Shown: in pieces, positions 1,566 through 38,137 of the stretch | Layout: every line of letters starts with the position of its first letter | Numbering within the stretch: the stretch's first letter is position 1 | Origin: a virus | Reading direction: 5' to 3' (one strand) | Virus record (IMG/VR): IMGVR_UViG_3300033155_001115 | Span: 1-39,000 of that record | Length of the DNA stretch: 39,000 bases | Translations under genes and position numbers: made by a program | The notes under the pieces: model-generated | What the model was told of the DNA's origin: nothing | The model's input: the letters and a program-made list of their open reading frames with translations, nothing else | The model's database searches: none

Positions 1566-1631
1566 GACACGGTTATCAAGATAGGATTAACGAGGAACTT
1601 AATGAACTCCCTACCCTCTGATAACCGTGTT
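1566..1631 (+). promoter_or_regulatory. Long stem enclosing the ribosome site and start codon of the next gene
   Basis: ACACGGTTATCA (1567-1578) and TGATAACCGTGT (1619-1630) are exact inverted repeats. An inner stem TAGG/CCTA (1582-1585 with 1610-1613) is also possible. The SD (GAGGA, 1592-1596) and ATG at 1602 fall in the apical loop. The element could control translation of the small Cys-rich gene it surrounds; this is inference from the pairing. Confidence 0.45.
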
Positions 1632-1784
1632 AACAATTTAATATGTCTTGTGAAAGGACATATGAAATGTGTAAGTTATATAGGTTGTCTTAATCGAGAA
1701 ACAACTGAGAATCATTGTCGTAACTGTGGACTTGAAATATCAAAGTGGGGGCACAATGCAAACGAGGACGCCAAAGGTTCTTAA
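1602..1784 (+). CDS. CNIKGH-family small zinc-finger-like protein
   Basis: 60 aa. NLICLVKGHMKC at residues 11-22 is the family signature; CLNRETTENHCRNCG follows with a probable CxxC knuckle. Start ATG has a GAGGA SD 6 nt upstream, inside the stem-loop at 1566-1631. It is the first of about seven such proteins in the window. Zinc binding is inferred from Cys/His spacing; the function is unknown. Confidence 0.65.
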   Translation: MNSLPSDNRVNNLICLVKGHMKCVSYIGCLNRETTENHCRNCGLEISKWGHNANEDAKGS

Positions 1785-2094
1785 GAAGGAAGATTTAGCC
1801 AAACTCTTCCAGAAGAATTACAACCGAAGAAAGTTCGCGATCGACGATCTTCGAGAGTATGCCTACCTGTTGACCGAACAGCAATCGTTCGTCTTCTCCC
1901 GACTCGCTCCAAGAGAGGTTCTTAAGGAACTATTTGTGGGCCCACGCGGGAACGACATGATGAACAAGATTGTCAACCATGCCGCCACTCTCGACAAGGA
2001 TCCAGTGAAGCAGGTGCTTCAAGTCAAAAAGTCCGAAGAGGATTTCATCCTCGCTCATAGTAACATTCTAATACAGAACATCGGAGGAGAGTAA
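1756..2094 (+). CDS. Hypothetical helical phage protein
   Basis: 112 aa from ATG 1756 (GTGGGGGC upstream as ribosome site), overlapping the previous gene by 29 nt. Predominantly helical and charged, with LFQKNYNRRKFAIDDLREYAYLL and a C-terminal HSNILIQNIGGE. The sequence turns GC-richer here, like the ATPase fragment at the window start, suggesting an older core gene. No family recognised. Confidence 0.6.
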   Translation: MQTRTPKVLKKEDLAKLFQKNYNRRKFAIDDLREYAYLLTEQQSFVFSRLAPREVLKELFVGPRGNDMMNKIVNHAATLDKDPVKQVLQVKKSEEDFILAHSNILIQNIGGE

Positions 2095-2309
2095 TGGAAG
2101 AGGTTCAACGTGAAGTGAAGGCTTTAGAAAATCATCTGGGGACTCTAAAGTCCACGGAGGAGAAGGTCAAATATCTGGTGCAGGGTGATTTCAAGACCCC
2201 TATACTGAGTGGACTCGCCGAAGGTAACGAACCTTTGAAAGAGGAGCTCGGTAACTGGATCAAAGACAATCCGGAGAAGATGAAGACATTCCGTGGTGAA
2301 AACACCTAG
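2094..2309 (+). CDS. Small helical hypothetical protein
   Basis: 71 aa, with TAATG overlap to the preceding stop, so probably translationally coupled. Charged and largely helical (MEEVQREVKALENHLGTLKS), without Cys. No recognised family. The product may act together with the preceding protein, given the tight coupling. Confidence 0.6.
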   Translation: MEEVQREVKALENHLGTLKSTEEKVKYLVQGDFKTPILSGLAEGNEPLKEELGNWIKDNPEKMKTFRGENT

Positions 2310-2466
2310 AGAAAGGTGCGACGACTGCGGGAGAGTCATCGAAAACAAGTACGGTGACTTCTTCGGATGTTATGGGGAGTCAGACAAGATACCTCGATGC
2401 AAGAGATGTTGCTGCTGTGTACCTTGCATCGATGACTCTCTACTTGACGTGGAGACGTTTGAGTAA
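2296..2466 (+). CDS. Short Cys-rich zinc-ribbon-like protein, GTG start
   Basis: 56 aa reading from GTG 2296 (GTG 2293 is also possible) to TAA at 2464-2466, with the next gene's ATG starting on the last base of the stop. Cys pattern: RCDDCGRV, GCYG, then RCKRCCCCVPC. At least two CxxC knuckles suggest zinc or Fe-S binding. Overlaps the previous gene by 14 nt. Reality is supported by codon-frame continuity and the stop/start coupling. Confidence 0.5.
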   Translation: MKTPRERCDDCGRVIENKYGDFFGCYGESDKIPRCKRCCCCVPCIDDSLLDVETFE

Positions 2467-2828
2467 TGCCTGAGAGTCTTTGTTGTCAGGTCAATCCGCT
2501 CCTCTATGGAGGATGTGCTCATTGTGGTAGAAGATACTGTGATGACTGTTACAAAATCTTAAGGATATCAAGCACCTTCAAGAGACCTCTACGTAGTGGA
2601 TCTGGTGGATCAGATTATATTTGTATTGATTGCCGCTACCCCATAAGCCAACTTCAGTATGATGTTGGGATGAAGATTTGGGAAGATCCTTACAAGAAGA
2701 ATGGTGATCCTTTTAATTCCATAATGAAGAGGGAGATGGGTCATAATCGTAAAAAGAGATGGTCAAAGCGTCAAAGGTACCACGAGTGGGAGAAGCTAGT
2801 GAAGGAAGGTAAGATCATATGGATTTAG
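2466..2828 (+). CDS. LCCLVNP-family Cys-rich protein with basic tail
   Basis: 120 aa. SLCCQVNPLL at residues 4-13, then GGCAHCGRRYCDDCY and a distal CIDC, a plausible two-site zinc finger. The C-terminal half (REMGHNRKKRWSKRQRYHEWEKL) is strongly basic and could contact nucleic acid. Start ATG overlaps the upstream stop by one base. Role unknown. Confidence 0.65.
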   Translation: MPESLCCQVNPLLYGGCAHCGRRYCDDCYKILRISSTFKRPLRSGSGGSDYICIDCRYPISQLQYDVGMKIWEDPYKKNGDPFNSIMKREMGHNRKKRWSKRQRYHEWEKLVKEGKIIWI

Positions 2829-2841
2829 TACGGAGCTATGG

Positions 2842-5358: not shown

Positions 5359-5520
5359 ATGAAAAGTAGATTAGACTTTCTATACGTACCGAAAAGAGGC
5401 TTTCTGAAGCGAGCGTGCTTACTCACGAAGGCATTCCTCAGTATGTCAAACAAGGAAAGAGATGCCTTGATCAATGATGCTAATAAGTACATTGGCTGTA
5501 GAAGCATGCCGGAAGCATGA
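5359..5520 (+). CDS. Short basic helical protein
   Basis: 53 aa from ATG 5359, with GTGGAG as SD 8 nt upstream; a longer frame from 5284 lacks an equally good ribosome site. Carries FLSMSNKERDALINDANKYIG, a helical segment resembling FELPSRERSKILRYVKKYIS in the protein at 38481. The two may be distant paralogues. Function unknown. Confidence 0.5.
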   Translation: MKSRLDFLYVPKRGFLKRACLLTKAFLSMSNKERDALINDANKYIGCRSMPEA

Positions 5521-5660
5521 CGAGTCGAAAACTATGTTGTATGATACATCCTTTCGTCGTGTGTAAATGTAGCGCAGCTTTTTGTTTTGAGTATCAAAGA
5601 GAAGGCGTTCCTTATAACGAGATAGAGCGAGGTACTATCTGCCCGAATGTGGAAGAATAG
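5517..5660 (+). CDS. Short LCCLVNP-family protein
   Basis: 47 aa, ATGA overlap with the previous stop, ending TAG 5658-5660. KLCCMIHPFVVCKCSAAFC at residues 5-23 is a clear family signature with a compressed CxC knuckle. The second Cys pair is reduced to a lone Cys (TICPNVEE), so this is a minimal or decayed member. It lies directly upstream of the antisense endonuclease gene, whose insertion may have shortened it. Confidence 0.6.
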   Translation: MTSRKLCCMIHPFVVCKCSAAFCFEYQREGVPYNEIERGTICPNVEE

Positions 5661-10541: not shown

Positions 10542-10891
10542 AGGCGGTACACGTAGGCGGCGGTGTACCATTTCCAGTGGATAAAGACGATATGAACCGT
10601 AAGACCAAGGAGAACCGTATGAAGGTATTCAAGCACAGAACGGGACTAATTTGGTCAATCATGGTTAGACCTGTGATGAAAGTAGTATTGATTATCAGCG
10701 GAGTTATACTGTCTGTGACATTTTGTATTTTCTTTTGGCACACACTAGCGTGTTGGCTAACTTCGGATAGAGATGGTCAAATACTAATAACAATATTTAC
10801 ATCAATCGCCTCTATGGCAGGTATACCTGCCTATTGGTTTAACTTCGGAGAAGATGCCGTCAAAAACATTCGTGATAGATGGAATCCGTGA
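10538..10891 (+). CDS. Two-helix membrane protein
   Basis: 117 aa, ATGA overlap with the ClpS-like gene. Basic cytoplasmic N-terminus (NRKTKENRMKVFKHRTG), then two hydrophobic segments (VVLIISGVILSVTFCIFFWHT and ILITIFTSIASMAGIPAYWF) separated by a short charged loop. Resembles small holin-like or inner-membrane proteins in topology only. Confidence 0.55.
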   Translation: MKAVHVGGGVPFPVDKDDMNRKTKENRMKVFKHRTGLIWSIMVRPVMKVVLIISGVILSVTFCIFFWHTLACWLTSDRDGQILITIFTSIASMAGIPAYWFNFGEDAVKNIRDRWNP

Positions 10892-11298
10892 AGAACAATC
10901 TATGCTGTCTTATCAACGGAGACCTTAACTTTAAAGGGAAGCCTCGATGTGAGAAGCACGCAGAACCCCTCTTCTGGGATATCATTCACAGAGCGGGCGA
11001 AGACAGCAAGAAACTAAAGAAGATTCTAGAGAAGCTTCCGACTGAGGAAGTCTACTCCTACGATAAGATGTTCAGTAGGATGGTTGGAGGACTATATCAT
11101 TCTTCTCAACCTTGTAGAGATGGAGTCGACTACGAGAAGTTCTATCATGTCGCTTGTGGTAAGAAACATTACTACACAATGTTGAAATGTAAAAAGGATA
11201 TAGAGGGTGAAGATGGTGACGGTGAACTTTTCAGTTATGTTCCTTTAGATGTTCTTGAAGACAGAGGAGAAGATCCGTACGGTGAGAATTATCATTGA
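10888..11298 (+). CDS. LCCLVNP-family protein with long acidic tail
   Basis: 136 aa from GTG 10888, which overlaps the previous stop as GTGA; ATG 10879 is the alternative. KNNLCCLINGD at residues 2-12, then RCEKH. The rest (KKLKKILEKLPTEEVYSYD, later KDIEGEDGDGELF) is unlike other members and adds a second domain of about 100 residues with scattered Cys and His. Role unknown. Confidence 0.65.
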   Translation: MKNNLCCLINGDLNFKGKPRCEKHAEPLFWDIIHRAGEDSKKLKKILEKLPTEEVYSYDKMFSRMVGGLYHSSQPCRDGVDYEKFYHVACGKKHYYTMLKCKKDIEGEDGDGELFSYVPLDVLEDRGEDPYGENYH

Positions 11299-11537
11299 TG
11301 AAACTTGGAAAGTGTAGTCTTTGTGACCAAGTTCTCACCCTTCTTAAGAAGACTGCTAAGTGTAGTTGTGGAGAAATTAAACTTCCGCCGAACTTCCCAA
11401 GAGAAATACCGTCACTTTGCTGTTCTGTGAACCCAACTAATTGGTGTATGGAATGTGGTAAGAGTCTTTGTGAAGACTGTTGTGACGATGGATCTCCAAT
11501 ATGTCCCTACTGTGGGACAAGTCGTTCATACAACTAA
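11298..11537 (+). CDS. LCCLVNP-family protein with an N-terminal zinc ribbon
   Basis: 79 aa from ATG 11298. First knuckle pair CSLCDQV and KCSCGE, then the family signature SLCCSVNPTNWCMECGKSLCEDCC internally at about residue 42, ending CPYCG. The signature is normally near residue 5; here an extra ribbon has been added in front, showing modular assembly. Start and stop are coupled to both neighbours. Confidence 0.65.
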   Translation: MKLGKCSLCDQVLTLLKKTAKCSCGEIKLPPNFPREIPSLCCSVNPTNWCMECGKSLCEDCCDDGSPICPYCGTSRSYN

Positions 11538-11761
11538 TGAACACAATGAACAATCTATGTTGTCTTGTCAATGGACTATTTCGTTGCGACGCCTGCAACA
11601 GAAAGGTTTGTGAGAAACATATGCTGGATTTAAGTACTCTTCCTACAAAAAGTGGAAAGAGATGGTATCGTTGTGAGTGCGGTGATTTCCGAAAATGGTT
11701 CTCATTGACTGAGAACAACCGTCATTACTGTAATAAAGACGGAAAAGAAAAATGGGGGTGA
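11537..11761 (+). CDS. LCCLVNP-family small protein
   Basis: 74 aa from ATG 11537 (TAATG coupling); ATG 11546 is the alternative. NNLCCLVNGLFRCDACNRKVCEKH is textbook: signature, CxxC, then C..H. A distal CECG and a lone late Cys follow. The start region ATGAACAATCTATGTTG is identical in DNA to the gene at 12357. Confidence 0.7.
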   Translation: MNTMNNLCCLVNGLFRCDACNRKVCEKHMLDLSTLPTKSGKRWYRCECGDFRKWFSLTENNRHYCNKDGKEKWG

Positions 11762-12081: not shown

Positions 12082-12360
12082 ATGAACTCATTTCCAATAG
12101 ATTTTGTCAAGTCCCTTATAGAACGTGGTGGAGAACCGCGAAACCTTGTAGTTAAAGGGCTCTGTTGTTTCATAAAGAAACATGCTCATTGTCCTAAATG
12201 TGATGTAGCATATGACATATATGGAAAAGGAAGAGGTAATGGCTATTGGCATTGGATCTATATGTGTGAAGATTGTTGGGATGATTTGAGTTCAAAAGAT
12301 CAAGGCAAGATAATAGAGCGTGATGGACAAGGTTTTTACGGACCGGATCTATTCAAATGA
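12082..12360 (+). CDS. LCCLVNP-family protein (divergent)
   Basis: 92 aa from ATG 12082; the upstream in-frame extension lacks an ATG with a ribosome site. The signature is displaced to about residue 28 and altered: KGLCCFIKKHAHCPKCDVAYD, which mixes LCC with the K..H of the CNIKGH class. A CEDC knuckle follows at about 62. Ends with ATGA overlap to the next member. Confidence 0.6.
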   Translation: MNSFPIDFVKSLIERGGEPRNLVVKGLCCFIKKHAHCPKCDVAYDIYGKGRGNGYWHWIYMCEDCWDDLSSKDQGKIIERDGQGFYGPDLFK

Positions 12361-12704
12361 ACAATCTATGTTGTCTTATCAACCCAGTTGCTAAGTGTAA
12401 CGACTGTAACGCCCGGATGTGTTCCTCTCATTTATATGTAGAGATTCCTAATTCTAGTATGTACTGGTGTGAAGAGTGCGGAGATAATCACCAAACTTGT
12501 ATTGAAGAGATAAATTCTCTTCAAGAGAGATTGGAAGTTTATGAGGAAGCATTAAGGGATTGGGATGAAGTTGTAGACCATTGGTGTCAAAACTGTAGGG
12601 AAGGAAAAGAACCTTGCCCGAGGTTAAACGATCTCAAAGAAATGGCGAGCAGCACTCACGACAGAACAAAAAGAACCGCACGCTCCATGGGAGGAGGGTG
12701 GTGA
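12357..12704 (+). CDS. LCCLVNP-family protein with coiled-coil tail
   Basis: 115 aa. MNNLCCLINPVAKCNDCNARMCSSH starts at residue 1, followed by CEECG; then a heptad-rich segment (IEEINSLQERLEVYEEALRDW), then a third Cys cluster (CQNCREGKEPC) and a basic tail. Could dimerise through the coil. Overlaps both neighbours by 4 nt. Confidence 0.7.
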   Translation: MNNLCCLINPVAKCNDCNARMCSSHLYVEIPNSSMYWCEECGDNHQTCIEEINSLQERLEVYEEALRDWDEVVDHWCQNCREGKEPCPRLNDLKEMASSTHDRTKRTARSMGGGW

Positions 12705-12970
12705 AAGGAAAGCTTTGCTGCATTATCAATCCTATGTGGAACGACACAGGAGAGAAGCTGACTTGCCACTACTGCGGCAAGGTAGTTTGCCAAGAATGCT
12801 GGATAAAGGGATCTCATTGGATAAATCCCCTCGTGATGCAAAAGGTTCATGGCTTTTCTGGTACCTTTCATATACCTCAAGTCGGGAAAAGAAAGAAGTA
12901 TCCAGACTGTATAGATCCATGGAAGGCGCGATTAATGGAAATCAAGAACATCCTAGAGTTGGAGGATTGA
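12701..12970 (+). CDS. LCCLVNP-family protein, GTG start
   Basis: 89 aa from GTG 12701, which overlaps the upstream stop as GTGA and follows GGAGGAGG, a very strong SD. KGKLCCIINPMW then LTCHYCGKVVCQECW; a longer insertion separates signature and finger than in most members. C-terminal helix LMEIKNILELED. Longer ATG starts upstream are not needed. Confidence 0.65.
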   Translation: MKGKLCCIINPMWNDTGEKLTCHYCGKVVCQECWIKGSHWINPLVMQKVHGFSGTFHIPQVGKRKKYPDCIDPWKARLMEIKNILELED

Positions 12971-13137: not shown

Positions 13138-13574
13138 TGGCTAGGGGTTGCGAAGGAGATAAAGTAGCAGGCATTAATTACGAGGCGGAGTGTTACGCCA
13201 AGGATGCATGTCCAGGCTGCTGGAACTGCTGGCTCAAGTGCGAGGGGTGTGAAAACTGTGAGGAGCTAGAAAATGAAAAGCTCCGTGACCCTAGAGTAGG
13301 AGACTACATAGTCGTCCACCAGAAGCTCACTCTCGATCCTAACTGGACCGGAACTTGGTCTGGAGCTATGGATGAAGGCCTGGGCAGAGTCGCCTATATT
13401 GCTGAGGGAAATCCCAGAGACGGCTTCAAACTGAAGTTCACTACAACTAATACAGAAGTTCTTGATCACTTCGTTTGGCCTGCGGGATGTATGAAACTAG
13501 CTATGCTAGACGATAATCGATCCGACGTCCTGATTAAGCGGGTCAAAGGGGAGTCTCATAACACTAACTTATGA
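13137..13574 (+). CDS. Cys-cluster protein with beta-rich C-terminal domain
   Basis: 145 aa. The N-terminus has a dense cluster ECYAKDACPGCWNCWLKC then EGCENCEE, with six or more Cys in CxxC steps that suit zinc or Fe-S. After a linker come RVGDYIVVHQKLTL and LGRVAYIAEG, probably an SH3/KOW-like barrel. Lacks the LCCLVNP signature. Function unknown. Confidence 0.55.
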   Translation: MARGCEGDKVAGINYEAECYAKDACPGCWNCWLKCEGCENCEELENEKLRDPRVGDYIVVHQKLTLDPNWTGTWSGAMDEGLGRVAYIAEGNPRDGFKLKFTTTNTEVLDHFVWPAGCMKLAMLDDNRSDVLIKRVKGESHNTNL

Positions 13575-13756
13575 GTGTCATCCGCGATAACCTACGCTTC
13601 GGTATCAAGAAGGAACGGTTTGTTTGCCTCGTTAAAGGACACGATTGGGAAGAGAGCGAAGCCACACACGAGATTAAAAAGGACTGGTACTGGCGCGGCC
13701 AGATATGTTTAGTGTGTGGTAAGATGGATCCTTACCCCGAAGACTTAAATGAATAA
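13571..13756 (+). CDS. CNIKGH-family protein
   Basis: 61 aa, ATGA overlap. RFVCLVKGHDWEESEATHEIKK then QICLVCGKMD: signature at residues 17-25, a His in the middle, and a terminal CxxCG knuckle, suggesting a C-H-C-C zinc site. Coupled to the next member of the same class by an 8-nt overlap. Confidence 0.65.
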   Translation: MSVIRDNLRFGIKKERFVCLVKGHDWEESEATHEIKKDWYWRGQICLVCGKMDPYPEDLNE

Positions 13757-13934
13757 CAATTTCATCTGCAACGTAAAGGGACATCAGCGATGTGAGCACG
13801 ATGCATGTACTCACGAGGAACTATATTATTTTGTACACTGTAAAATATGTGCTAAGGTTCGTTTTCTAGATAGGACCTGGGCTGTTTGGGGAAAAGAGAG
13901 ACTGGGATGCTGCCAAGACAAAATGATATCGTAA
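13749..13934 (+). CDS. CNIKGH-family protein
   Basis: 61 aa. NNFICNVKGHQRCEHDACTHEEL at the N-terminus, then HCKICAKVRF. Layout matches the gene before it, so the two form a tandem pair with diverged sequence. Function unknown. Confidence 0.65.
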   Translation: MNNNFICNVKGHQRCEHDACTHEELYYFVHCKICAKVRFLDRTWAVWGKERLGCCQDKMIS

Positions 13935-14254
13935 GGACGATAGAGGACTGTGAAGGAGAAGGATGGATTCCTAATATGTATAACTCCTGGATAGAACTCT
14001 CTGATGGAGATAAGGTAAAGCTTCCAAAGGGAACCTTTCTTCGTTATTCCAAGACAGGGCAGTTTGGAACAAAAGTATTTGTTATTCCCCCACCCTCTAA
14101 GGCACGGAGATTCATTAAGAAAATCAAAGGAAAAGATATTCACTTTTATCAGATACAGGTGATAATAAACCCTTACATGTTAAAGTTTTATTGTAAGAGA
14201 GAAGACTTTGATATCAAGGATGTAGAAAGGTTCTACTGTGGAACAGAAGATTAG
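13907..14254 (+). CDS. Hypothetical beta-rich protein
   Basis: 115 aa from ATG 13907 (a purine-rich AGAGAG precedes it; TTG 13886 is an alternative). IVRTIEDCEGEGWIPNMYNSW then IELSDGDKVKLPKGTFLRY suggests a strand-rich fold. C-terminal part YMLKFYCKREDFDIKDVERF. No family recognised. Confidence 0.5.
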   Translation: MLPRQNDIVRTIEDCEGEGWIPNMYNSWIELSDGDKVKLPKGTFLRYSKTGQFGTKVFVIPPPSKARRFIKKIKGKDIHFYQIQVIINPYMLKFYCKREDFDIKDVERFYCGTED

Positions 14255-14507
14255 GCTCTGCTGTCTTGTCAACGGAAACGAGTGTTTCTTCTGTAAATGT
14301 TGTCCTTCCCGAGGAAAGAAATTTTGTACAACTCATTCTAAAGGGAACTGTTGTCCTGACTGTGAGACTCTTCTCCGACAAAAAGATGAACCAAAAATTG
14401 AATGTAAATGGAAACATTGTGACCAATCGGGAATGTGTCACTTCGCAAAGGTTCTCAAAGAAAAAGGATATGGATCGAGACTTCGTCTGCAACATAAAAG
14501 GCCATAA
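14238..14507 (+). CDS. LCCLVNP-family protein, GTG start
   Basis: 89 aa from GTG 14238 (AAAGG SD), 17 nt inside the previous gene. RLCCLVNGNECFFCKCCPSR then KFCTTH, CCPDC and later CKWKHCDQSGMCHF: ten or more Cys in three groups, the most Cys-dense member. Probably binds more than one zinc. Ends RLQHKRP overlapping the next gene by 38 nt. Confidence 0.65.
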   Translation: MEQKIRLCCLVNGNECFFCKCCPSRGKKFCTTHSKGNCCPDCETLLRQKDEPKIECKWKHCDQSGMCHFAKVLKEKGYGSRLRLQHKRP

Positions 14508-14643
14508 GGAATGTTGGAAGTATGAAAAGCCTGATCTAAAGTGTACCCACTTTGGGAGAGTGGTAAAGCAGTTCCACTCTCATTGTAGTAGGTGTGGACG
14601 TTATCGTCTTGTTTCCGGAGAATGGAGGTTTGCGACAGTATGA
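14470..14643 (+). CDS. CNIKGH-family protein
   Basis: 57 aa from ATG 14470; a longer open frame upstream is the shadow of the previous gene. DRDFVCNIKGHKECWKYEK then LKCTHFGRV and HCSRCGRYRL. All metal-ligand positions of the class are present. The ribosome site AAAAGGA is close to the start, so efficiency may rely on coupling. Confidence 0.6.
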   Translation: MDRDFVCNIKGHKECWKYEKPDLKCTHFGRVVKQFHSHCSRCGRYRLVSGEWRFATV

Positions 14644-15026
14644 AACTAGTTTCTAAGGGAGAACTTAAAGTAGATAAAGTTGCAGCTATCAAGAAGCTAA
14701 GAGAGGACGTTAACAAGCTCTCCGCTCACTGTGTCCAACTCCTCTTTAGAGGTATATTGGTCCCGATCCTTTTAGGGACACTTGTAATCGTAACACCTAT
14801 ATACTTCTTGATCTCGGTATTTGGAGGCTTCGCTATACTTATGATACCCATACTACTCTTATCAATACCCGCAACATTTGCAATTTATCTCTTTGGGTGT
14901 TCCTTGATGGGAAGAAATTCTCGTATAGCTATCAACGCCTTTGAAGATACTTGGATAAGATTACGAAAAGCCGTGAGTAGACTTGACACTGTTACTTATA
15001 AGGTAGATGTTAATGACAACTGGTAA
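14640..15026 (+). CDS. Two-helix membrane protein
   Basis: 128 aa from ATG 14640 (ATGA overlap). Basic/amphipathic N-terminus, two long hydrophobic segments (LLFRGILVPILLGTLVIVTPIYFLI and GFAILMIPILLLSIPATFAIYLF), then a helical cytoplasmic tail ending VNDNW. The last codons and following bases repeat the junction at 4049. Function unknown. Confidence 0.6.
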   Translation: MKLVSKGELKVDKVAAIKKLREDVNKLSAHCVQLLFRGILVPILLGTLVIVTPIYFLISVFGGFAILMIPILLLSIPATFAIYLFGCSLMGRNSRIAINAFEDTWIRLRKAVSRLDTVTYKVDVNDNW

Positions 15027-15210
15027 AGACAAACTTTGTTGTCTCGTAATGAGAGTTTGTCCGATATCGGGCAAAGCGTCTTACTGTATGAAATGTGGAA
15101 AAATTTGGTGTGAAGAGTGCGTTCCTCCTTGGAAGAGTTATTGCTGTGGCGTCAGGACGTTAATGTACGTTCCACCTAATTGGTCTCCAAAAATAAATGA
15201 AGATAGTTAA
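15013..15210 (+). CDS. LCCLVNP-family protein
   Basis: 65 aa from ATG 15013 (ATG 15007 also in frame; AAGGTAG spacing favours 15013). GKDKLCCLVMRVCPISGKAS then YCMKCGKIWCEECV and CCGVR. The N-P of the signature is replaced by M-R. Overlaps both neighbours. Confidence 0.65.
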   Translation: MTTGKDKLCCLVMRVCPISGKASYCMKCGKIWCEECVPPWKSYCCGVRTLMYVPPNWSPKINEDS

Positions 15211-15547: not shown

Positions 15548-15913
15548 ATGTTAAAATACGAGGTTCTTAGAACGGTAAAAGATTTGAATGTAACAAAAGC
15601 TATTAACAAATCAGATGAATTATCTCTCCCTGAGGATACGTCTTGGTGTGTATTAAAAATAATTAAACCATGTTTGGCATGTCTAATACATCCAACTATG
15701 AAGTGTACTACGTGTAACGCTACTATTTGTAGCTCTTGTGTAAAGGCTCTTGAAGACAAAGGTATGTTTGCCATAATAGAATGTCCTAAGAAGAAGGGAT
15801 GGTCCCAAAAACAACTGGAAGAGAATTTCACAAAGAGTAATATCTTAATACCCGAAGTAGCTAAAAACACATGTATTTGGAAAAGAGGTCTCGATAAGAG
15901 ACCCACCGCATGA
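15548..15913 (+). CDS. LCCLVNP-family protein with internal signature
   Basis: 121 aa. An N-terminal 38-residue extension (MLKYEVLRTVKDLNVTKAIN) precedes KPCLACLIHPTMKCTTCNATICSSCV, the CLxCLV variant of the signature plus the finger. C-terminal part KKKGWSQKQLEENFTKS is basic and helical. Shows the signature is not tied to the start codon. Confidence 0.65.
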   Translation: MLKYEVLRTVKDLNVTKAINKSDELSLPEDTSWCVLKIIKPCLACLIHPTMKCTTCNATICSSCVKALEDKGMFAIIECPKKKGWSQKQLEENFTKSNILIPEVAKNTCIWKRGLDKRPTA

Positions 15914-16317: not shown

Positions 16318-16607
16318 TGGCCTACGGGATCATCTATACTTCCATGCACTCGGAGCTCGTTAAGGGCTCCGAGGTGCATGGGAAGTTACTCAATAAGTAT
16401 ACGTTCGGTATCTTTACTGGGCTCTACTGGATGAGAGTTAAACTCTCCAATGGAGTAAACAGGGACATTTTGGTAAAGCCTATTGAGAAACCTAAACCAA
16501 AGGTGACTTTACCACCACCTCCACCTCCACCGAAGCCAAAAGAACCAACTAAAGGGGATTTGGAAGAGATGGATTTCATCAAGAACTTGTTTGAAAAGTT
16601 GTACTGA
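16317..16607 (+). CDS. Small protein with polyproline hinge
   Basis: 96 aa. An N-terminal beta-rich domain (GIIYTSMHSELVKGSEVHGKL, GLYWMRVKLSNG) is followed by a Pro hinge (LPPPPPPPKPKEP) and a C-terminal helix (LEEMDFIKNLFEKLY) that could be a docking peptide. No family recognised. Confidence 0.55.
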   Translation: MAYGIIYTSMHSELVKGSEVHGKLLNKYTFGIFTGLYWMRVKLSNGVNRDILVKPIEKPKPKVTLPPPPPPPKPKEPTKGDLEEMDFIKNLFEKLY

Positions 16608-16819
16608 TGAGATCTTCCTTCACCAGAAAACGATGGAAAAGTAAAAGAAAAGCACTATGCTGCCTCGTTAATACGAGGTGGGTCTGTAAGGTATGTGGGT
16701 GGAAACTCTGTAGTCAATGTTACGACACCCTTTACATGTTAAGGACTCACGTATATAAGGGCCCCTTATGGTACGATTATGACTATTGTGAATTTTGTTC
16801 AAAGAGGAAAAATGACTAA
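16607..16819 (+). CDS. LCCLVNP-family protein with basic N-terminus
   Basis: 70 aa, TGATG overlap. The basic lead RSSFTRKRWKSKRK precedes ALCCLVNTRWVCKVCGWKLCSQCY; a distal CEFC completes a second knuckle. The first 15 residues could bind nucleic acid. Confidence 0.65.
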   Translation: MRSSFTRKRWKSKRKALCCLVNTRWVCKVCGWKLCSQCYDTLYMLRTHVYKGPLWYDYDYCEFCSKRKND

Positions 16820-22130: not shown

Positions 22131-23384
22131 ATGTTTGAAGTACTAGAAAAGCTAGAAGCAGCTGGTAATGCTAGAAATAAAAAGCTAGAGATTCTCAAAG
22201 CAGCAAAGAGCGACGAGATTCTCAAGGAGTCATTCGTATTAGCATATGACTTCACTAGAACATTCGGAATCACTGTCAAAAAGTTTACTGTAGGATCTAC
22301 TACTATAAAAGGTAAGACTGCTTGGGAGAAGTTCAAGAAGCTTACTGACCAGCTTGCTAATAGAAAGTTGACTGGTAATGAAGCTAAAGACAAAGTCGAC
22401 AGCTTCTTAGGCTCTGTGCCTGAAGGTGAATCTAAATGGTATCAGAGAATCTTAAACAGAGATCTCCAGATCGGAGCAACCTCCAACACGGCCAATAGAG
22501 TGTGGCCCGGATTGATCTACAGCTTCAAGGTGATGGCTGCGAACGAAGCTAAGATGGATAAGCTCAAGTTCCCTTATCTAGTTGATTCCAAGCTTGATGG
22601 GATGAGGATGATGTTCTTTATCTACCCCAAGAGAACCCTCATTCTCAGCCGAGGAGCAAAAGAATATCCACAGTTACAGTTCGTAGCCGATCAGCTACGG
22701 AGTAGTTATGGTATTGGTATCTACGACGGGGAGATGCTTGCAGCCAATTGGAATGATACTATTCATCTTGTCAAGAAGAGTGTTGGAAAGATGGACGATC
22801 TTGAACTAGCACGACGTGACGCTACGTTATTCTTTCATTGTTTTGATTGGCTTCCAATCGACAAAGACAAGACTCTTACTTGGGATAAACCTCTCTCGGA
22901 GAGACGTTCCGAGCTTCAAGAAAAGGGTAAAGGAAAGATACTAAACAACGTCAAGCTTGTGCCCGTTCATGTTATTAACAATAGAACTGAACTTGATGAG
23001 ATATATGAACGGTTCCTCGAGAAAGGATTTGAAGGAGCAATGCTTAAGGATCCGAACGGTCCTTACGTTCCGAAGAGAAAGGATTGGTGGCTGAAACTCA
23101 AACCTATCAAGACTGTCGACGGAAAGATTGTTGATGTGGTTGTTGGAGACTCTCCAAGGACTAAAGGAATTCTCGGAAAGTTTATGGTTGAACTAGATAA
23201 TGGCAAAGTCATTGGGGTTGGTTCTGGATTTACTTTAGAACAAAGAAAAGACTTTTGGGCTAAGAGATCTAGTCTGATTGGTCAGTGGTTAGAATTCAAG
23301 GTGCAGGACGACTCCAATGATGTAGCGTCCGCTCGATTCCCTATCTACCAAAGAATCCGAGAAGACATCCCAAATGGAAAATAA
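22131..23384 (+). CDS. ATP-dependent DNA ligase
   Basis: 417 aa from ATG 22131. Adenylation motif KLDGMR with the catalytic Lys at about 154; IYDGEMLA (motif III); EGAMLKDP (motif IV); WWLKLKP (motif V); C-terminal OB-fold with GSGFTLEQRKDFW. The N-terminal 140 residues are a helical DNA-binding part. It joins nicks using ATP in phage replication and repair, as T4 and T7 ligases do. Probably the only core replication gene in the window. Confidence 0.9.
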   Translation: MFEVLEKLEAAGNARNKKLEILKAAKSDEILKESFVLAYDFTRTFGITVKKFTVGSTTIKGKTAWEKFKKLTDQLANRKLTGNEAKDKVDSFLGSVPEGESKWYQRILNRDLQIGATSNTANRVWPGLIYSFKVMAANEAKMDKLKFPYLVDSKLDGMRMMFFIYPKRTLILSRGAKEYPQLQFVADQLRSSYGIGIYDGEMLAANWNDTIHLVKKSVGKMDDLELARRDATLFFHCFDWLPIDKDKTLTWDKPLSERRSELQEKGKGKILNNVKLVPVHVINNRTELDEIYERFLEKGFEGAMLKDPNGPYVPKRKDWWLKLKPIKTVDGKIVDVVVGDSPRTKGILGKFMVELDNGKVIGVGSGFTLEQRKDFWAKRSSLIGQWLEFKVQDDSNDVASARFPIYQRIREDIPNGK

Positions 23385-23559
23385 ATGTCTTCCTTGTCTT
23401 GTCAATGGTAGCTTAAAACATGCTAAATGTGGCTGGAGAGTATGTAGTAAACATTGGAGTAAGTTTCTTAGGTCATTGGAGAAACACTTAAAAGGTAAGC
23501 CTTGGGTGTCGCTAGAAAAATATTGTCCAAAGTGCGGAAAGGAAAAGATTACATTCTAA
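23374..23559 (+). CDS. LCCLVNP-family protein
   Basis: 61 aa, 11 nt inside the ligase gene. NKCLPCLVNGSLKHAKCGWRVCSKHW, with the first CxxC of the finger reduced to a single Cys, and a terminal CPKCGKEK. TAATG coupling to the next member. Confidence 0.65.
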   Translation: MENKCLPCLVNGSLKHAKCGWRVCSKHWSKFLRSLEKHLKGKPWVSLEKYCPKCGKEKITF

Positions 23560-23759
23560 TGACTAATTTATGTTGTATGGTTAATCCATATAAAAAGTGT
23601 AAGTGTGGAAGAAGATGGTGCAACAAAGACTGGTATAAGTTCTCCAGAGCTAGTAAAAAGAACGGACAGTTTACCAGAAATAAGAAGAGCTCTAAGTGGA
23701 TACACAAGTGCGATAGGTGTAGTCACCAGACTATCAAGAGGATTAAAGCTAATGCCTAA
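23559..23759 (+). CDS. LCCLVNP-family protein
   Basis: 66 aa from ATG 23559. TNLCCMVNPYKKCKCGRRWCNKDW, the shortened CxC type, then KCDRCSHQTIKR. Strongly basic (many Lys/Arg). Tandem with the previous gene; the two share the layout including Trp after the finger. Confidence 0.65.
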   Translation: MTNLCCMVNPYKKCKCGRRWCNKDWYKFSRASKKNGQFTRNKKSSKWIHKCDRCSHQTIKRIKANA

Positions 23760-24383: not shown

Positions 24384-24558
24384 ATGTGGATATCCTAATT
24401 GTAAAGGTAAGCCAACGTGTCGTAAGAAGTCACATGGACTGTGCGATTTCAATTTGAAGAAGGATCCATACGAAGGTGATAGGTGCGTCTGGATTTGTGA
24501 CAAGCACTATGACATTATAGATTTCCTGAGGTATTGTGATGAGCGGACAGACGAATGA
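24370..24558 (+). CDS. Small Cys-rich protein
   Basis: 62 aa, 14-nt overlap. NKCGYPNCKGKPTCRKKSHGLC then RCVWICDKHYD: C/H spacing suits one or two zinc ions. Acidic end DERTDE. No family recognised. Confidence 0.5.
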   Translation: MARNKCGYPNCKGKPTCRKKSHGLCDFNLKKDPYEGDRCVWICDKHYDIIDFLRYCDERTDE

Positions 24559-24937
24559 ACTTTGTTGTTTAGTTAATCCACACCAGCTTTGTGAGAAGTG
24601 TAATAAGAAAAAGTGCAAGGACCACTCTACCATTTGTAGTAACTGTGGAACCATATGCAGAGAGTGTGCTGGAAGTATGCACCGCTGCATGGGTCTATGT
24701 AGTACAGAACTGTGCGGTTCCTGCGTGAGTTCAACTGGAAAAACATGTCATACATGTTTTGAGTATGAAAGACTTGCTAAGGAATATAAGCGAAGATGTA
24801 TTTTCGACTCGGCGGACAAAGATCCGGGCTATAAATTATCTAAATGGACCACTTCGTTCACTACAAGCAGCACCTCTTTTACTGGTTGGACCACAAGTAA
24901 CACAACAGACTTCACAGAGTATACTAGCGGATCTTAG
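24539..24937 (+). CDS. LCCLVNP-family protein with Thr/Ser-rich tail
   Basis: 132 aa from ATG 24539 (GAGG SD). NELCCLVNPHQLCEKCNKKKCKDH, then three more Cys clusters (CSNCGTICREC, CMGLCSTELCGSC, CHTC). The last 30 residues are a low-complexity Thr/Ser/Trp tail (WTTSFTTSSTSFTGWTTS, then NTTDFTEYTSGS), unlike any neighbour and possibly a modification or surface-exposed segment. Last gene before the promoter-like repeat. Confidence 0.65.
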   Translation: MSGQTNELCCLVNPHQLCEKCNKKKCKDHSTICSNCGTICRECAGSMHRCMGLCSTELCGSCVSSTGKTCHTCFEYERLAKEYKRRCIFDSADKDPGYKLSKWTTSFTTSSTSFTGWTTSNTTDFTEYTSGS

Positions 24938-24998: not shown

Positions 24999-25268
24999 AT
25001 GAAGACTAAATCATACCTGATAAAACTCAAACAGATATTAGTCAAAGTGGTTCGAGAACAATATGATAACGGCTACGGTGGGAGAGCTGCTATCAGGAGA
25101 TATTCCTCGTTCTGTTACCGGATAAAGGATGCAAAAACAGTAGGAGAACTTTTTCTCCTTATGAAGGAAATGAGACTAGATCTTGATTCTGTCCTAGAAT
25201 TAGCTTTCTATCCCTTGTTAAAAGACACTTCTAAAAATGAATTCGCAGACTTCCCAAGTAGGTGGTAA
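24999..25268 (+). CDS. Small helical hypothetical protein
   Basis: 89 aa, first gene after the promoter-like element. Entirely helical by eye: LIKLKQILVKVVREQYDNGY, ELFLLMKEMRLDLDSVLEL. One Cys. No family recognised. Confidence 0.55.
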   Translation: MKTKSYLIKLKQILVKVVREQYDNGYGGRAAIRRYSSFCYRIKDAKTVGELFLLMKEMRLDLDSVLELAFYPLLKDTSKNEFADFPSRW

Positions 25269-25425
25269 GTGCCTTGTTTGTTTAGTAAATCCAGAATATA
25301 TCTGTAGTGTACCTACATGTAAGGAAACAGCATGTTCTGAACACTCAGAGGGCTGGTGTCCAAGGTGGAAGAAGCGTTGGGCTTGTCCAGAGTGTTATTC
25401 TCGTCCATTCTCTCAACGTTGCTAG
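25237..25425 (+). CDS. LCCLVNP-family protein
   Basis: 62 aa, 32-nt overlap with the preceding gene. KCLVCLVNPEYICSVPTCKETACSEH then RWACPECYSRPFSQRC, ending at TAG 25423-25425. The finger has an enlarged CxxxxC spacing. The following frame may be a continuation (see 25307). Confidence 0.6.
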   Translation: MNSQTSQVGGKCLVCLVNPEYICSVPTCKETACSEHSEGWCPRWKKRWACPECYSRPFSQRC

Positions 25426-28384: not shown

Positions 28385-28389
28385 CTACC

Positions 28390-31098: not shown

Positions 31099-31608
31099 AT
31101 GGCTAAGAGACGAAAGAGGAAAAAGAGACAGCTAGTCAACCTGAAGAGGTTCACACGGCAAGAGCTCAAGAGGGTAGCGGATCAGGCTCATGAGAGGTGG
31201 ATCAAAGAGAACACAAAGTACTACACCTCAACCTGTTTTAAACCAGGTACCTGGGTACGCTTCCGAGAAGCATTCCCGAAAGGTGACGACTACCGCCAAC
31301 GACTTGCAGACCGATGGCGAAGTGTGAGGATGAATCCGGACGGAGAATTTATAACAGGTAGAGTGAGCTTCGGCTACATACAGAAGACAGGCAGAATCTC
31401 AAGATATACTATTAAGTATCTCGACCTCAAAACAGGATATCATACGGAAACTACTAGAGGTATTAAACAGGTAGAAGAAGCTATACAGCAAGATATTGAT
31501 GTCATCAATATGATTTGTGAGCTTAAGGGCTATCCTAAGCTAACTATTCTCGCCGATGAATTTGTTGGACCGGCTCTCACAAAAAGGCGCAAATATGGAA
31601 GCAGATAA
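31099..31608 (+). CDS. Basic hypothetical protein
   Basis: 169 aa. A strongly basic N-terminus (AKRRKRKKRQLVNLKRFTRQ) then FKPGTWVRFREAFPKG, GRVSFGYIQKTGRISRYTIK: an SH3/barrel-like middle and a helical end. May bind nucleic acid through the basic lead. No family recognised. Confidence 0.55.
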   Translation: MAKRRKRKKRQLVNLKRFTRQELKRVADQAHERWIKENTKYYTSTCFKPGTWVRFREAFPKGDDYRQRLADRWRSVRMNPDGEFITGRVSFGYIQKTGRISRYTIKYLDLKTGYHTETTRGIKQVEEAIQQDIDVINMICELKGYPKLTILADEFVGPALTKRRKYGSR

Positions 31609-31828
31609 GAAAGAATCTGATTGGTCAGAAGATTCTGGGTTTATTCCTCCCCAAAGGGATCTGGCTTGTATTCTCAATGGTTGCATCGCTTGCGATCATG
31701 AAAGAGGTTGGTGTGAGGAGCATGAGAAGGTAGGTAACCTTGAAGCGAGAGATATTCCTTACCATTGTAAGCGTTGTGGTGAATACATGGAAGGAGAAGG
31801 AAAAAAGAACAAGGGGATGTTCGGATGA
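31595..31828 (+). CDS. LCCLVNP-family protein (divergent)
   Basis: 77 aa from ATG 31595. An acidic lead, then DLACILNGCIACDHERGWCEEH and HCKRCGEYM. The L-N-G core of the signature is kept, with LACIL for LCCLV. ATGA overlap to a second member. Confidence 0.6.
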   Translation: MEADKKESDWSEDSGFIPPQRDLACILNGCIACDHERGWCEEHEKVGNLEARDIPYHCKRCGEYMEGEGKKNKGMFG

Positions 31829-32007
31829 AAGGCTGTTTGGCTTGTTTAGTAAATCCTATGAAGTTTGAGGGAGGTTACAAAATTTGTGGGAGATGTAGAG
31901 AAGCTATATGTGCATTGTGTATTAGTAACAATAGAGATGCGGACACTTATGTACACTACCATTCTCAGTGTTTTCCTTTAGGTCAGCCTAGACTAGGAGG
32001 CTTATGA
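31825..32007 (+). CDS. LCCLVNP-family protein
   Basis: 60 aa. GCLACLVNPMKFEGGYKICG then RCREAICALCISN: signature at residues 3-9 with an inserted turn before the finger, ending CxxC instead of CxxH. AGGAGG within its last codons serves the next gene. Confidence 0.65.
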   Translation: MKGCLACLVNPMKFEGGYKICGRCREAICALCISNNRDADTYVHYHSQCFPLGQPRLGGL

Positions 32008-32129: not shown

Positions 32130-32488
32130 AAGTTCTCATCTGTGGAGATAGAAACTGGAACGACTATATCACTATCTGTAATAGAATACAGAAGCTACCC
32201 TATGGTACAATAGTTATTCATGGTGATTGTAGGGGTGCTGACAAGTTAGCAGGTAAGGCTGCTGAGGTATTCGGGTTTAAAGTTCAGAAGTTTCCCGCTA
32301 ACTGGGAAACTTTCGGACTAGCAGCTGGGCCTATTAGAAATATTGAGATGCTGGATGAAGAGCCCGATCGTGTTATAGCTTTTCATGAGGATATAGATAA
32401 ATCTAAAGGGACCGCTCATACAGTCAAGGAAGCTTTAAATAGAAGAATTCCCGTGGAGATAATTTCCTGTGAAGAAGACGTGCGATAA
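32126..32488 (+). CDS. DUF2493/YspA-like SLOG protein
   Basis: 120 aa, ATGA overlap. VLICGDRNWNDYITICNRIQ, TIVIHGDCRGADKLAGKAAE, AAGPIRNIEMLDE, and VIAFHEDIDKSKGTAHTVKE are the Rossmann-like nucleotide-binding motifs (GxRxw, hGxCxGaD, gpiRN) of the YspA/DUF2493 SLOG family. These proteins are thought to bind nucleotides or NAD-derived ligands and occur in phage and defence contexts. Length is full for the family. Confidence 0.8.
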   Translation: MKVLICGDRNWNDYITICNRIQKLPYGTIVIHGDCRGADKLAGKAAEVFGFKVQKFPANWETFGLAAGPIRNIEMLDEEPDRVIAFHEDIDKSKGTAHTVKEALNRRIPVEIISCEEDVR

Positions 32489-32735
32489 GTGTGACTTCAT
32501 ACATAGAGTCAAAGGTGTGCCGATAGGTAGACAGCTACACTGTGCTAAATGTGGTACTTACATTTGTGATGACTGCAGAAGTAAATACCACAATCGAGGA
32601 TCAAGTGATTCAGCATTCAACGGATGGTTCCACAAAGACTGCTGGCCTTTAGAGGGCTGCCTATGTAACAAGGTAGGATGTGACTGTCAAATACCTGAAA
32701 TGGAGTTGGATACAAACCCCAAGTATTCACACTAA
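32469..32735 (+). CDS. Cys-rich zinc-finger protein, GTG start
   Basis: 88 aa from GTG 32469 with GGAG upstream. KKTCDKCDFIHRVKG opens, then LHCAKCGTYICDDC with a distal CLCNKVGCDC cluster. The finger core equals that of LCCLVNP members, while the signature is absent; FIHRVKG resembles CNIKGH. Function unknown. Confidence 0.6.
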   Translation: MKKTCDKCDFIHRVKGVPIGRQLHCAKCGTYICDDCRSKYHNRGSSDSAFNGWFHKDCWPLEGCLCNKVGCDCQIPEMELDTNPKYSH

Positions 32736-35021: not shown

Positions 35022-35026
35022 GGAGA

Positions 35027-35545: not shown

Positions 35546-35715
35546 TGGGAAAGCAATGTTCCAGTAAGTGCCTCAAAACTAAAGATGGAAATCATCGCCC
35601 AAAAGATTGGGATTGTATGTGTTCTTTCAGTTGTGACTGTTGCTGGATAGCTTCCAGATGCAAAGCTTGTGGGATGGCCCTTAATAGTCAAGTAACGGAG
35701 GCCGCGCGGAAATGA
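35545..35715 (+). CDS. 56-residue Cys-rich protein
   Basis: ATG 35545 (TAATG) to TGA 35713-35715. GKQCSSKCLKTKDGNHRPKD then CMCSFSCDCCW and RCKACG: nine Cys in three clusters, suitable for zinc or disulfides. The signature is absent but the next gene is a canonical LCCLVNP member, ATGA-coupled. Confidence 0.55.
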   Translation: MGKQCSSKCLKTKDGNHRPKDWDCMCSFSCDCCWIASRCKACGMALNSQVTEAARK

Positions 35716-35933
35716 AGTTATGTTGTCAGATAAATCCCGTCTTTAGATGTAGATGGTGTGAAGGCAATCTTTGTGATGACTGTATGGATGTCTTACCGCA
35801 TTTTTATAAAGACTCGAAGAAATCTGGTAATCAAATGAGAGCTTGTTCATGTGGTCAAACTAAAGGTCATATAGGGAAGTCTGATTGGGATATACGTCCT
35901 TGGGATTATTGCTGTGATGAAGAGTGTGATTAA
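35712..35933 (+). CDS. LCCLVNP-family protein
   Basis: 73 aa. MKLCCQINPVFRCRWCEGNL then CDDCMDV at the very start, then ACSCGQTKG and a final acidic CCDEECD. Last gene before the tRNA-Val. Confidence 0.7.
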   Translation: MKLCCQINPVFRCRWCEGNLCDDCMDVLPHFYKDSKKSGNQMRACSCGQTKGHIGKSDWDIRPWDYCCDEECD

Positions 35934-36008: not shown

Positions 36009-36013
36009 ATATA

Positions 36014-36103: not shown

Positions 36104-36310
36104 ATGACAGAAGAGCAACTCTTCGCAAGAAAAATGATCAAACGAGATCAAGCCTTAAGAAGGAAATGTTTGGTTTGCTTACTAAGGGTAGAGGATCACT
36201 CCCATGGATGTGCTTACTGCCATGAGTACATATGTGATGACTGTTACCCAGAAAGAAGAAAGCTTCACTGGAAGGGATTAGGCTCCCATTGTTGGAAGGA
36301 ACTTGTATGA
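36104..36310 (+). CDS. LCCLVNP-family protein (CLxCL variant)
   Basis: 68 aa from ATG 36104, 5 nt after the tRNA-like gene. A basic lead (RKMIKRDQALRR), then KCLVCLLRVEDHSHGC and AYCHEYICDDCY. The V-N-P is changed to L-R-V. Overlaps the next gene by ATGA. Confidence 0.6.
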   Translation: MTEEQLFARKMIKRDQALRRKCLVCLLRVEDHSHGCAYCHEYICDDCYPERRKLHWKGLGSHCWKELV

Positions 36311-37192: not shown

Positions 37193-37264
37193 GGGCGCGT
37201 AGCTCAACGATAGAGCACTCCGCTTGCACCGGAGAGGCTGTGAGTTTGAATCTCACCGTGTCCA
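37193..37264 (+). tRNA. tRNA-Ala (anticodon UGC)
   Basis: Acceptor GGGCGCG/CGTGTCC (two GU pairs), D arm GCTC/GAGC, anticodon stem CTCCG/CGGAG with loop CTTGCAC (TGC), variable AGGCT, T arm GTGAG/CTCAC with TTTGAAT. Canonical, 72 nt; the encoded 3' end is followed by CAG, not CCA. Confidence 0.85.
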
Positions 37265-37279
37265 CAGTTTAAAGAAACC

Positions 37280-37504
37280 ATGAATAATTGTCTAATATGT
37301 TCGGTTCGCGGCAAAGTCTACCAGATAGTCATTTGGCCTAGAGATTCGAACTCGACTATTTTCAACGTCAGAGCCTTCTCTGCAGAAGACGCTGTACGGA
37401 AAGTAGCAAGGATGACCTCTAATGAGGATCCTAACGATACAGTTCGTTGGTATAAAGAAGACAATCTCGATTGGGATGTGACTGAATTGGAGATATCTGA
37501 GTAA
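37280..37504 (+). CDS. Small protein with CLICSVRGK start
   Basis: 74 aa. NNCLICSVRGKVYQIVIWPR: the first residues echo the paralogue signatures (CLxC.V.G), but no finger follows. The rest is a ferredoxin-like strand-helix unit (FNVRAFSAEDAVRKVARM) as in small phage proteins. Possible chimera of a signature with another domain. Confidence 0.5.
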   Translation: MNNCLICSVRGKVYQIVIWPRDSNSTIFNVRAFSAEDAVRKVARMTSNEDPNDTVRWYKEDNLDWDVTELEISE

Positions 37505-37515
37505 GGGCGTAAAAC

Positions 37516-37881
37516 ATGAGAAAGGTAAATAAAATTTGGAAGGAAGAAGAAGTTTGGCTTGACGACTCAGAAGACATCTTTAGTGGGAATATAGATGAGA
37601 TCATTCAGAAGCTTCAAAGTATAAAGGAAGACCTAGCAACTAGAGGATACAAAAATATTCGTCTAAATGAAAACGCCGGGTATGAAAATATAAGCCACAG
37701 CGCCTACGGGAAGCGAATAGAGACAGACAAAGAGTTTGAAAGACGAATGAAGAATCGGGAAGCGCAAAAACAAAAGAAGTTAAGAGATAAAGATAAAAAG
37801 AAGGATAGGGAGCTTAAAGAGCTGGAAAGACTAAAGAAGAAGTATGAGAAGCTTGGGACCAAGATCAAGGATTTGAGCTAA
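37516..37881 (+). CDS. Charged coiled-coil protein
   Basis: 121 aa. An N-terminal helical unit (NIDEIIQKLQSIKEDLATRG), a short loop (YENISHSAYGKRIETD), then a long Lys/Glu coiled coil (RMKNREAQKQKKLRDKDKKK onward). No Cys. No family recognised. Confidence 0.55.
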   Translation: MRKVNKIWKEEEVWLDDSEDIFSGNIDEIIQKLQSIKEDLATRGYKNIRLNENAGYENISHSAYGKRIETDKEFERRMKNREAQKQKKLRDKDKKKDRELKELERLKKKYEKLGTKIKDLS

Positions 37882-37888
37882 TAACGGC

Positions 37889-38137
37889 ATGGATAAAGAA
37901 AAAGCTGCGAGGATTTCTACTGCGTCTATCCCCTTATGCTGTTTGATCAACCCAATGATCTGGAGGGAATATCAGTATTGTACTTGCATTATTTGTGACA
38001 AACAAATATGTTCCACATGTATGGGAAAGTACGCTGGTGGGACAAACTGGAATCATCATGAGAAATGCTTAAAGACGTGTCCTCATACAGAAGATTACCA
38101 CAACCAGAGAAACAAGGAAATAGATGAGAAGCACTAG
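37889..38137 (+). CDS. LCCLVNP-family protein
   Basis: 82 aa. A 15-residue lead, then PLCCLINPMIWREYQYCTC then IICDKQICSTCM, and a His/Cys tail (HHEKCLKTCPHTEDYH). An insertion of about 6 residues between signature and finger. Last clear member in the window. Confidence 0.65.
   Translation: MDKEKAARISTASIPLCCLINPMIWREYQYCTCIICDKQICSTCMGKYAGGTNWNHHEKCLKTCPHTEDYHNQRNKEIDEKH

Follow-up and report, generated by a model that had tools for sequence, protein, structure and literature searches.

An expanded family of small cysteine-rich proteins, putative RING/FYVE-like zinc fingers, in one arm of large uncultured tailed phages

Results

Signature and gene content of the window

The stretch of DNA analysed here (the window, 39,000 nucleotides) corresponds to positions 1-39,000 of the uncultured virus record IMGVR_UViG_3300033155_001115. 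Nearly all of its genes lie on the plus strand, and 24 of them encode proteins in which a cysteine-rich signature, L-C-C-x-[VIL]-N-[PGT] or C-L-x-C-L-[VI]-N-P, is followed by the core CxxC-x4-Cxx[CH] and usually by a last CxxC or C/H pair (family A, about 40-160 residues; Table 1). A strict form of the motif (LCC/CLxC) matches 20 times in the window, 20/20 on the plus strand, versus a chance expectation of 0.18 on average and 2 at most in 60 Markov shuffles, which bears out the large signature family proposed in an initial annotation of this DNA. All 23 genes listed there are open frames at the starts given or a few codons off, and each carries the signature; a start placed at 1602 belongs instead to a sister family, B (ICLVKGH...CxxC). 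The members had been described as sitting singly among unrelated genes, which fails for 10879/11298/11546, 12082/12357/12698, 21041/21364 and 23374/23559, as these are neighbours. The sister family and two probable core copies, associated with replication and recombination genes, had been overlooked.

Profiles built from the window and related phages recover 19-22 of the 24 genes at E<=0.01, the lowest scores falling to the members at 15013, 36104 (CLVCLLRV), 37889 and 21364. In 23/24 members an upstream stop codon lies within about 40 bases of the start, and the genes are therefore tightly packed in operons. The 53 copies of standard spacing show no variation at Leu, Cys, Cys, Asn and the finger Cys. 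Third codon positions in these copies are near background (0.07 bits for the third base of Leu), and the choice of TGT or TGC for Cys, and of Asn codons, is close to genome usage; conservation thus lies in the protein and not in a DNA repeat. The near-background synonymous sites rule out a repeat or recombination site as the explanation of the signature. A lipobox or secretion signal was likewise rejected, no hydrophobic segment being found ahead of the signature.

Distribution among viruses and hosts

DNA-pattern scans of 2.9 million viral contigs revealed 13 carrier records besides the window, and one more record shares a core copy. Counted with profile A2 unless profile A1 is stated, copies number 21 in the window, 61 (68 by A1) in the 210-kb record IMGVR_UViG_3300027807_000001 (G001), 46 in G003 (54 kb) and 17 in G004 (28 kb). 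These expanded genomes (n=4) are all metagenomic and linear; the remaining carriers hold 1-3 copies each, some beside recombination or replication genes. By crude mechanical gene calls, family A makes up 20-27% of the genes of the arm in which it resides (window 19/98, G001 57/288, G003 37/139, G004 15/67). Copy numbers thus range from 1 to ~68 and no known family corresponds, so that the signature does not go back to a widely annotated family equally numerous in all relatives, as had been considered. A control set of 290 non-carrier loci (2.6 Mb) gave one match of at least 20 bits, versus 130 in carriers.

Scanning 84,980 prokaryote genomes of GTDB with the DNA pattern gave 75 exact matches and no credible member. 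Only one of them (L223, 22 bits) exceeds 20 bits by profile, and this locus does not resemble a gene; a prophage or host origin is therefore not supported. Among cultured phages, tblastn with one representative copy and the core copy as baits gave no credible match, and Bacillus phage G, the nearest cultured relative by terminase (TerL; 31% over 89%), holds no family copy. Window DNA and the COOH-NH2 ligase protein retrieved no cultured or IMG/VR relatives, and a DUF2201 bait returned, apart from two remote homologs, nothing beyond the expanded carriers already described. Nearly all of the 118 matches to a loose gapped DNA pattern were due to chance; the pattern still led to G001. Pfam, PHROGs, NCBIfam and PADLOC contain no family common to the members above curated or usual cut-offs, and we found no description of family A in the literature. 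Family A appears to be unnamed and virus-specific, and is confined to one lineage of large uncultured tailed phages.

The largest carrier, G001, encodes TerL, portal, head protease, contractile sheath, DNA polymerase, helicases and ribonucleotide reductase, mostly on the minus strand, and bears the family, together with 36 tRNA genes, in a plus-strand arm (20-117 kb). The window is collinear with about 70-95 kb of this record (DUF2201, COOH-NH2 ligase, GATase and others). At 103383-116053 (L160), 32 of the 36 tRNA genes of G001 lie within 13 kb, with family A genes interspersed.

Predicted fold

The family consensus reads x-L-C-C-[LIVQ]-[VIL]-N-[PGT]-x3-C-x2-C-x4-C-x2-[CH]-x(n)-[CH]-x2-C. The signature lies a median of five residues past the nearest Met, in most cases no more than 20 residues from the start. 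At the sixth ligand position, 119/124 members have C or H, and the fourth pair (n=126) is CxxC in 39, HxxC in 13 and not recognised in 46, some other members showing a late C-P-x-T or C..GH[WY] in its place. All four ligand pairs are visible in a subset of 43 sequences.

Searching PDB with a profile of 8-ligand members (A5) placed FYVE domains first (VPS27, E=7e-5), followed by Rabphilin, EEA1 and HRS (E 0.002-0.003) and then by TRIM/RING and ATRX; the reversed-alignment control returned mixed fingers with a best E of 0.008. In two AlphaFold models (predicted local distance difference test, pLDDT, of 78), a short helix lies at the signature, ahead of a knuckle hairpin and of a second helix that begins at Cxx[CH]; from this secondary structure we read a treble clef topology, knuckle hairpin then helix, with moderate confidence. 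The C-terminal part of both models is of low confidence, the first showing only a short EE at 59-60. The spacing, the profile matches and the models together lead us to infer that the signature is the knuckle of the first zinc in a binuclear treble clef of RING/FYVE-like type. The members are predicted to bind zinc, with zinc 1 held by the LCC knuckle and by Cxx[CH] at the head of the helix. The middle CxxC and the last pair would together hold zinc 2, a second site that would often be altered or lost. We call the architecture RING/FYVE-like, and not a proven member of that group, because the fold searches were non-significant. The phosphatidylinositol 3-phosphate-binding motif of FYVE domains, R(R/K)HHCRxCG, was not found, residues before and in the middle CxxC varying freely. 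The variation outside the finger and the dedicated, expanded zinc-finger family in one phage arm that the initial annotation had suggested are both supported.

The very high Cys content of these proteins would also suit a zinc store or a metal or redox buffer of metallothionein type. Fixed spacing, invariant Leu, Val and Asn, and domain fusions are needless for a buffer, and we regard this explanation as hardly credible.

Sister family and fused bodies

Family B, defined by LxCL[VI][NK]G[HC]...CxxC, comprises 7 genes in the window and 20 in its relatives. When the A and B profiles are compared, their signatures align, as do their last CxxC pairs (hhalign probability 60%, E 8e-5, one comparison), which is suggestive of homology and not proof of it. 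Across the four genomes, 137 coding-strand frames contain the common N-terminal segment (99 A, 22 B and 16 other), versus 2 antisense frames.

The tag is also found on other bodies. A 239-residue protein of G003 (41987-42706, that is L373 1987-2706) carries the tag and CPAHW directly ahead of a complete FGE-sulfatase domain (E=1.9e-43), and G003 34552-35049 joins it to a body that looks, by eye, like a winged helix. In the window, the helical body of 10879-11298 bears a weak likeness to DUF4240 (E 2.8e-4, below cut-off). The finger is retained only in part in 10879-11298 and in 15013-15210; reduced members such as 10879-11298 and the FGE fusion have nothing left of the unit but LCC...N-P and Cxx[CH][W], the predicted first zinc site. 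Adaptors, as the proteins had tentatively been termed, is in part an apt name, given that the LCC tag occurs on other bodies with part or all of the finger.

A segment common to two finger families and to fused bodies, mostly less than 20 residues from the start, might alternatively be an address: LxCL[VI][NK][PG] would direct proteins to the virion or a phage compartment as a localisation or packaging signal, much as the capsid-targeting sequence does for T4 internal proteins, and the finger would serve as scaffold. The zinc ligands lie inside the signature, however, some members have the unit at the C-terminus (21364), no cleavage site was seen and the copy number is large for virion cargo. 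We consider an address tag quite improbable.

Duplication and probable core copies

In G001, the best paralog lies within 3 kb for 21/59 copies, compared with 5.3 at random. Few copies have a clear ortholog in another genome (19559 with G001 79410; G001 54200 with G004 24032), unlike the large genes neighbouring family copies, which are well conserved. Copies arise by local duplication and diverge fast. The excess of local duplication, the very few 1:1 orthologs and truncated copies such as 36474-36566, likely a decayed or partial member, are what neutral or selfish expansion would leave behind, with a duplication-prone arm copying a short, easily folded finger and most copies having no important role. 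Against this, the zinc ligands and LxCL[VI]N are kept in nearly all copies while synonymous sites are near background, so that most copies are under selection, and the gene share is similar (20-27%) in all four genomes. Neutral expansion is therefore improbable in our estimate.

There are also two probable core copies. In G001, the first has a QueE-like gene (recognised by eye; Pfam gave no match) on one side and an AAA/SMC-like ATPase gene, near RecA, on the other; its counterparts in G010 and G012 are 56-63% identical. The second lies beside a DnaB-like helicase gene in G008, G009 and G011, the helicase being identified via its G001 homologue. The simplest inference is that an ancestral core gene expanded into the arm. 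The surrounding segment of G001 (151463-159993, L162) also encodes a QueD-like protein (PTPS, E 2.2e-25) near RecA and the AAA/SMC-like ATPase, as well as a QueC-like protein, recognised by eye as was QueE; 7-deazaguanine DNA modification is possible.

The placement of the probable core copies in replication and recombination operons, next to RecA, the AAA/SMC-like ATPase and DnaB, is also what one would expect if the copies were replication or recombination helpers, or small zinc-finger transcription or translation factors controlling phage or host genes. P2 Ogr and TraR/DksA are small factors of comparable kind. The family is slightly basic (median isoelectric point 8.2) and one fused body is winged-helix-like (G003 34552-35049). 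The isoelectric points are nevertheless widely spread (quartiles 6.4-8.9), so there is no general nucleic-acid signature; moreover, it is not evident why a phage would need 60 divergent regulators, and the profile matches are protein-protein fingers (FYVE, RING, B-box) and not DNA-binding ones. A role as regulators or helpers is unlikely on balance, if a serious alternative.

Neighbouring genes

Further small Cys-rich proteins that lack the tag adjoin members in the window (2293-2466, 24111-24383, 24370-24558 and 35539-35715). A DUF2201 copy without interruption lies at 2842-4062, and a second DUF2201 protein (6553-8835), VWA/metallopeptidase-like, is split by an intein with a LAGLIDADG domain. 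HNH-like frames with a similar CxxC core (CFYCNSPLN.../CHYCKYNID...) at 36611-37126 and, on the minus strand, at 5704-6471, one of them between tRNA genes, are probable homing endonucleases. A COOH-NH2 ligase of phiEco32 type, a small gene and a class II glutamine amidotransferase (26841-29199), whose order is kept in G001 and G004, form a possible peptide or wall modification cassette. A scan for sigma-70 promoters revealed no excess of sigma-70-like promoters.

The window further encodes a ClpS-family N-end-rule adaptor (10227-10541, Pfam E 1.7e-11; G001 match 45754-46047) in the same arm as the zinc-finger family. Together with the resemblance of the fingers to RING, U-box and B-box domains, this gene would fit proteolysis adaptors: host proteins would be delivered to a protease or a ubiquitin-like machine through the RING-like fingers or through a shared dock. 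The Pfam matches of the window include no E1, E2 or ubiquitin-like gene, however, and the RING resemblance is at fold level only, which makes proteolysis adaptors very unlikely.

Table 1 Members of families A and B and related elements in the window
Position	Strand	Feature
1602..1784	+	Family B (LICLVKGH...CxxC)
2466..2828	+	Family A (LCCQVNP), 8 ligands, basic C-terminal extension; directly upstream of DUF2201 gene
5517..5660	+	Family A (LCCMIHP), short
10879..11298	+	Reduced family A: LCCLING tag and CEKH fused to helical body
11298..11537	+	Family A (LCCSVNP), second Cys-rich finger in front
11546..11761	+	Family A (LCCLVNG)
12082..12360	+	Family A-like (LCCFIKK; LCCFIKKHAHC), 24th member, absent from the initial list
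12357..12704	+	Family A (LCCLINP), 8 ligands, helical/coil C-terminus
12698..12970	+	Family A (LCCIINP, long loop)
13571..13756	+	Family B (FVCLVKGHDW...CxxCG)
13749..13934	+	Family B (FICNVKGH...CxxC)
14238..14507	+	Family A (LCCLVNG), divergent finger
14470..14643	+	Family B (FVCNIKGH...CxxCG)
15013..15210	+	Family A (LCCLVMR), weak
15548..15913	+	Family A (CLACLIHP), 41-residue N-terminal extension
16607..16819	+	Family A (LCCLVNT), 8 ligands; part 16649-16816 modelled, pLDDT 78
17087..17359	+	Family A (CLCCQVNT)
19559..19972	+	Family A (CLPCLVNP), extra C-terminal domain; clear ortholog G001 79410-79829
20670..21044	+	Family B (FVCNIKGHEW) fused to hydrophobic C-terminal half
21041..21367	+	Family A (LCCQVNV)
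21364..21807	+	Multi-finger protein; family A unit (LCCLVGS) C-terminal
21961..22128	+	Family B (FICDIKGC...CxxCG)
23374..23559	+	Family A (CLPC/HAKC/CSKH/CPKC), modelled, pLDDT 78
23559..23759	+	Family A (LCCMVNP)
24539..24937	+	Family A (LCCLVNP), extra CxxC pairs, Ser/Thr-rich tail
25237..25425	+	Family A (CLVCLVNP)
31556..31828	+	Family B (LACILNGC...CxxCG); G001 match 79203-79409
31825..32007	+	Family A (CLACLVNP)
32469..32735	+	Related finger without tag (CxxC-x4-CxxC), weak B-box/IBR match
35712..35933	+	Family A (LCCQINP), immediately ahead of tRNA-Val
36104..36310	+	Family A-like (CLVCLLRV), weakest, profile E 0.048
36474-36566		Truncated copy CLVCLVKPEDCFGSQ, then stop codon
37889..38137	+	Family A (LCCLINP, long loop)

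Discussion

We propose that family A proteins are fast-turnover early effectors for host takeover or counter-defence that share an N-terminal zinc docking module, a function to which we give an even chance of being correct. A shared docking module is suggested because the predicted first zinc site and the LxCL[VI]N tag persist in reduced and fused members, and because the tag recurs in the sister family, where it is joined to a different finger. The segment has the look of a docking or address module since its invariant part exceeds the zinc ligands (Leu, Val/Ile, Asn-Pro/Gly), is common to a second family and is joined to unrelated bodies. The zinc module would dock, and the variable helix, loop and C-terminal body would bind different partners; the effectors would most likely be made early and act on varied host proteins. 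Arm copies would derive from the ancestral copy in the recombination and replication core, and tandem duplication in the tRNA-bearing arm, combined with fast divergence and loss, would supply a changing set of small effectors. More tentatively, and with considerable doubt on our part, these phages may hold a library of ~60-100 small effectors, many built on a transferable N-terminal zinc module (LxCL[VI][NK][PG] and Cxx[CH]) that docks one common partner. The bodies joined to it would be interchangeable, the simplest being no more than a variable helix and others an enzyme-like FGE-sulfatase domain, and the library would be renewed by tandem duplication as hosts change.

Several observations weigh against the docking-module effectors proposed here. 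About one third of members have no recognisable last ligand pair, and a few hold the unit C-terminally (21364). Foldseek gave no match at E<=0.001 for either model (best E 0.37, to RING1B, and 1.5), RING-type proteins topping the first list non-significantly, and zinc was not placed in the models by AlphaFold. The homology of A and B is weak, the core genomic position also fits a role in DNA metabolism, and searching PADLOC with the members gave no match. The alternatives set out above rank, by our estimate, in the order nucleic-acid regulators, neutral expansion, address tag, proteolysis adaptors and metal buffering.

Family A stands out by its size, with ~68 copies matched by profile in a single 210-kb phage and a share of between a fifth and a quarter of arm genes, and by its absence from the four libraries searched; we know of no paralog expansion on such a scale in tailed phages. 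Should the copies prove to be effectors aimed at different targets, they would constitute a ready library for finding weak points of the host and new counter-defence proteins, and the duplication and divergence of an arms-race gene family could be traced in a phage. The RING/FYVE-like fold is usually regarded as eukaryotic. The family bears on how such two-zinc folds exist outside eukaryotes and, if the more tentative reading as an effector library is true, would represent a modular, evolvable phage effector repertoire built on one.

Comparison with known systems

RING-like binuclear treble clefs include RING, B-box, ZZ and FYVE/PHD, and in this fold the last ligand begins a C-terminal beta strand within a three-stranded sheet (PMC4506424). 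Family A resembles them in the order of the ligand pairs in those members where all four are recognisable (C2, C2, C2-or-H, C2), in CxxC-x4-Cxx[CH] and in a predicted knuckle followed by a helix. It differs in a loop of only 7 residues between pairs 1 and 2, in a first pair that is mostly adjacent CC and in a predicted second zinc site that is optional; it is, moreover, phage-only, stand-alone and massively paralogous, with no significant fold match. Many small zinc-finger proteins per genome are also found in Haloferax volcanii, with 43 zinc-finger micro-proteins containing two C(P)XCG motifs (PMC10716476). Several of these have phenotypes; the set is cellular, binds one zinc and is defined by motif, whereas family A is united by one signature and resides in a phage arm.

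The host takeover module of SPO1 consists of 26 small early genes, of which Gp53 acts as an adaptor-like ClpC ligand (PMC6873191). The family A arm is similar in having small, tightly packed genes in one region. The SPO1 genes are not known to be related to one another or to encode zinc fingers, whereas here one family accounts for between a fifth and a quarter of the arm. DUF1660-type phage zinc ribbons read 'CxxxGHkW...CxxCG', a look that family B shares (FVCLVKGHDW...CLVCGK), although a Pfam scan of its seven members gave no DUF1660-type match; family A, unlike these ribbons, adds CxxC and Cxx[CH]. Finally, internal proteins of T4-type phages combine a shared N-terminal capsid-targeting sequence with unrelated variable bodies and high turnover. 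Family A likewise joins a constant N-terminal segment to variable bodies with high turnover, but its constant part holds zinc ligands and a predicted fold.

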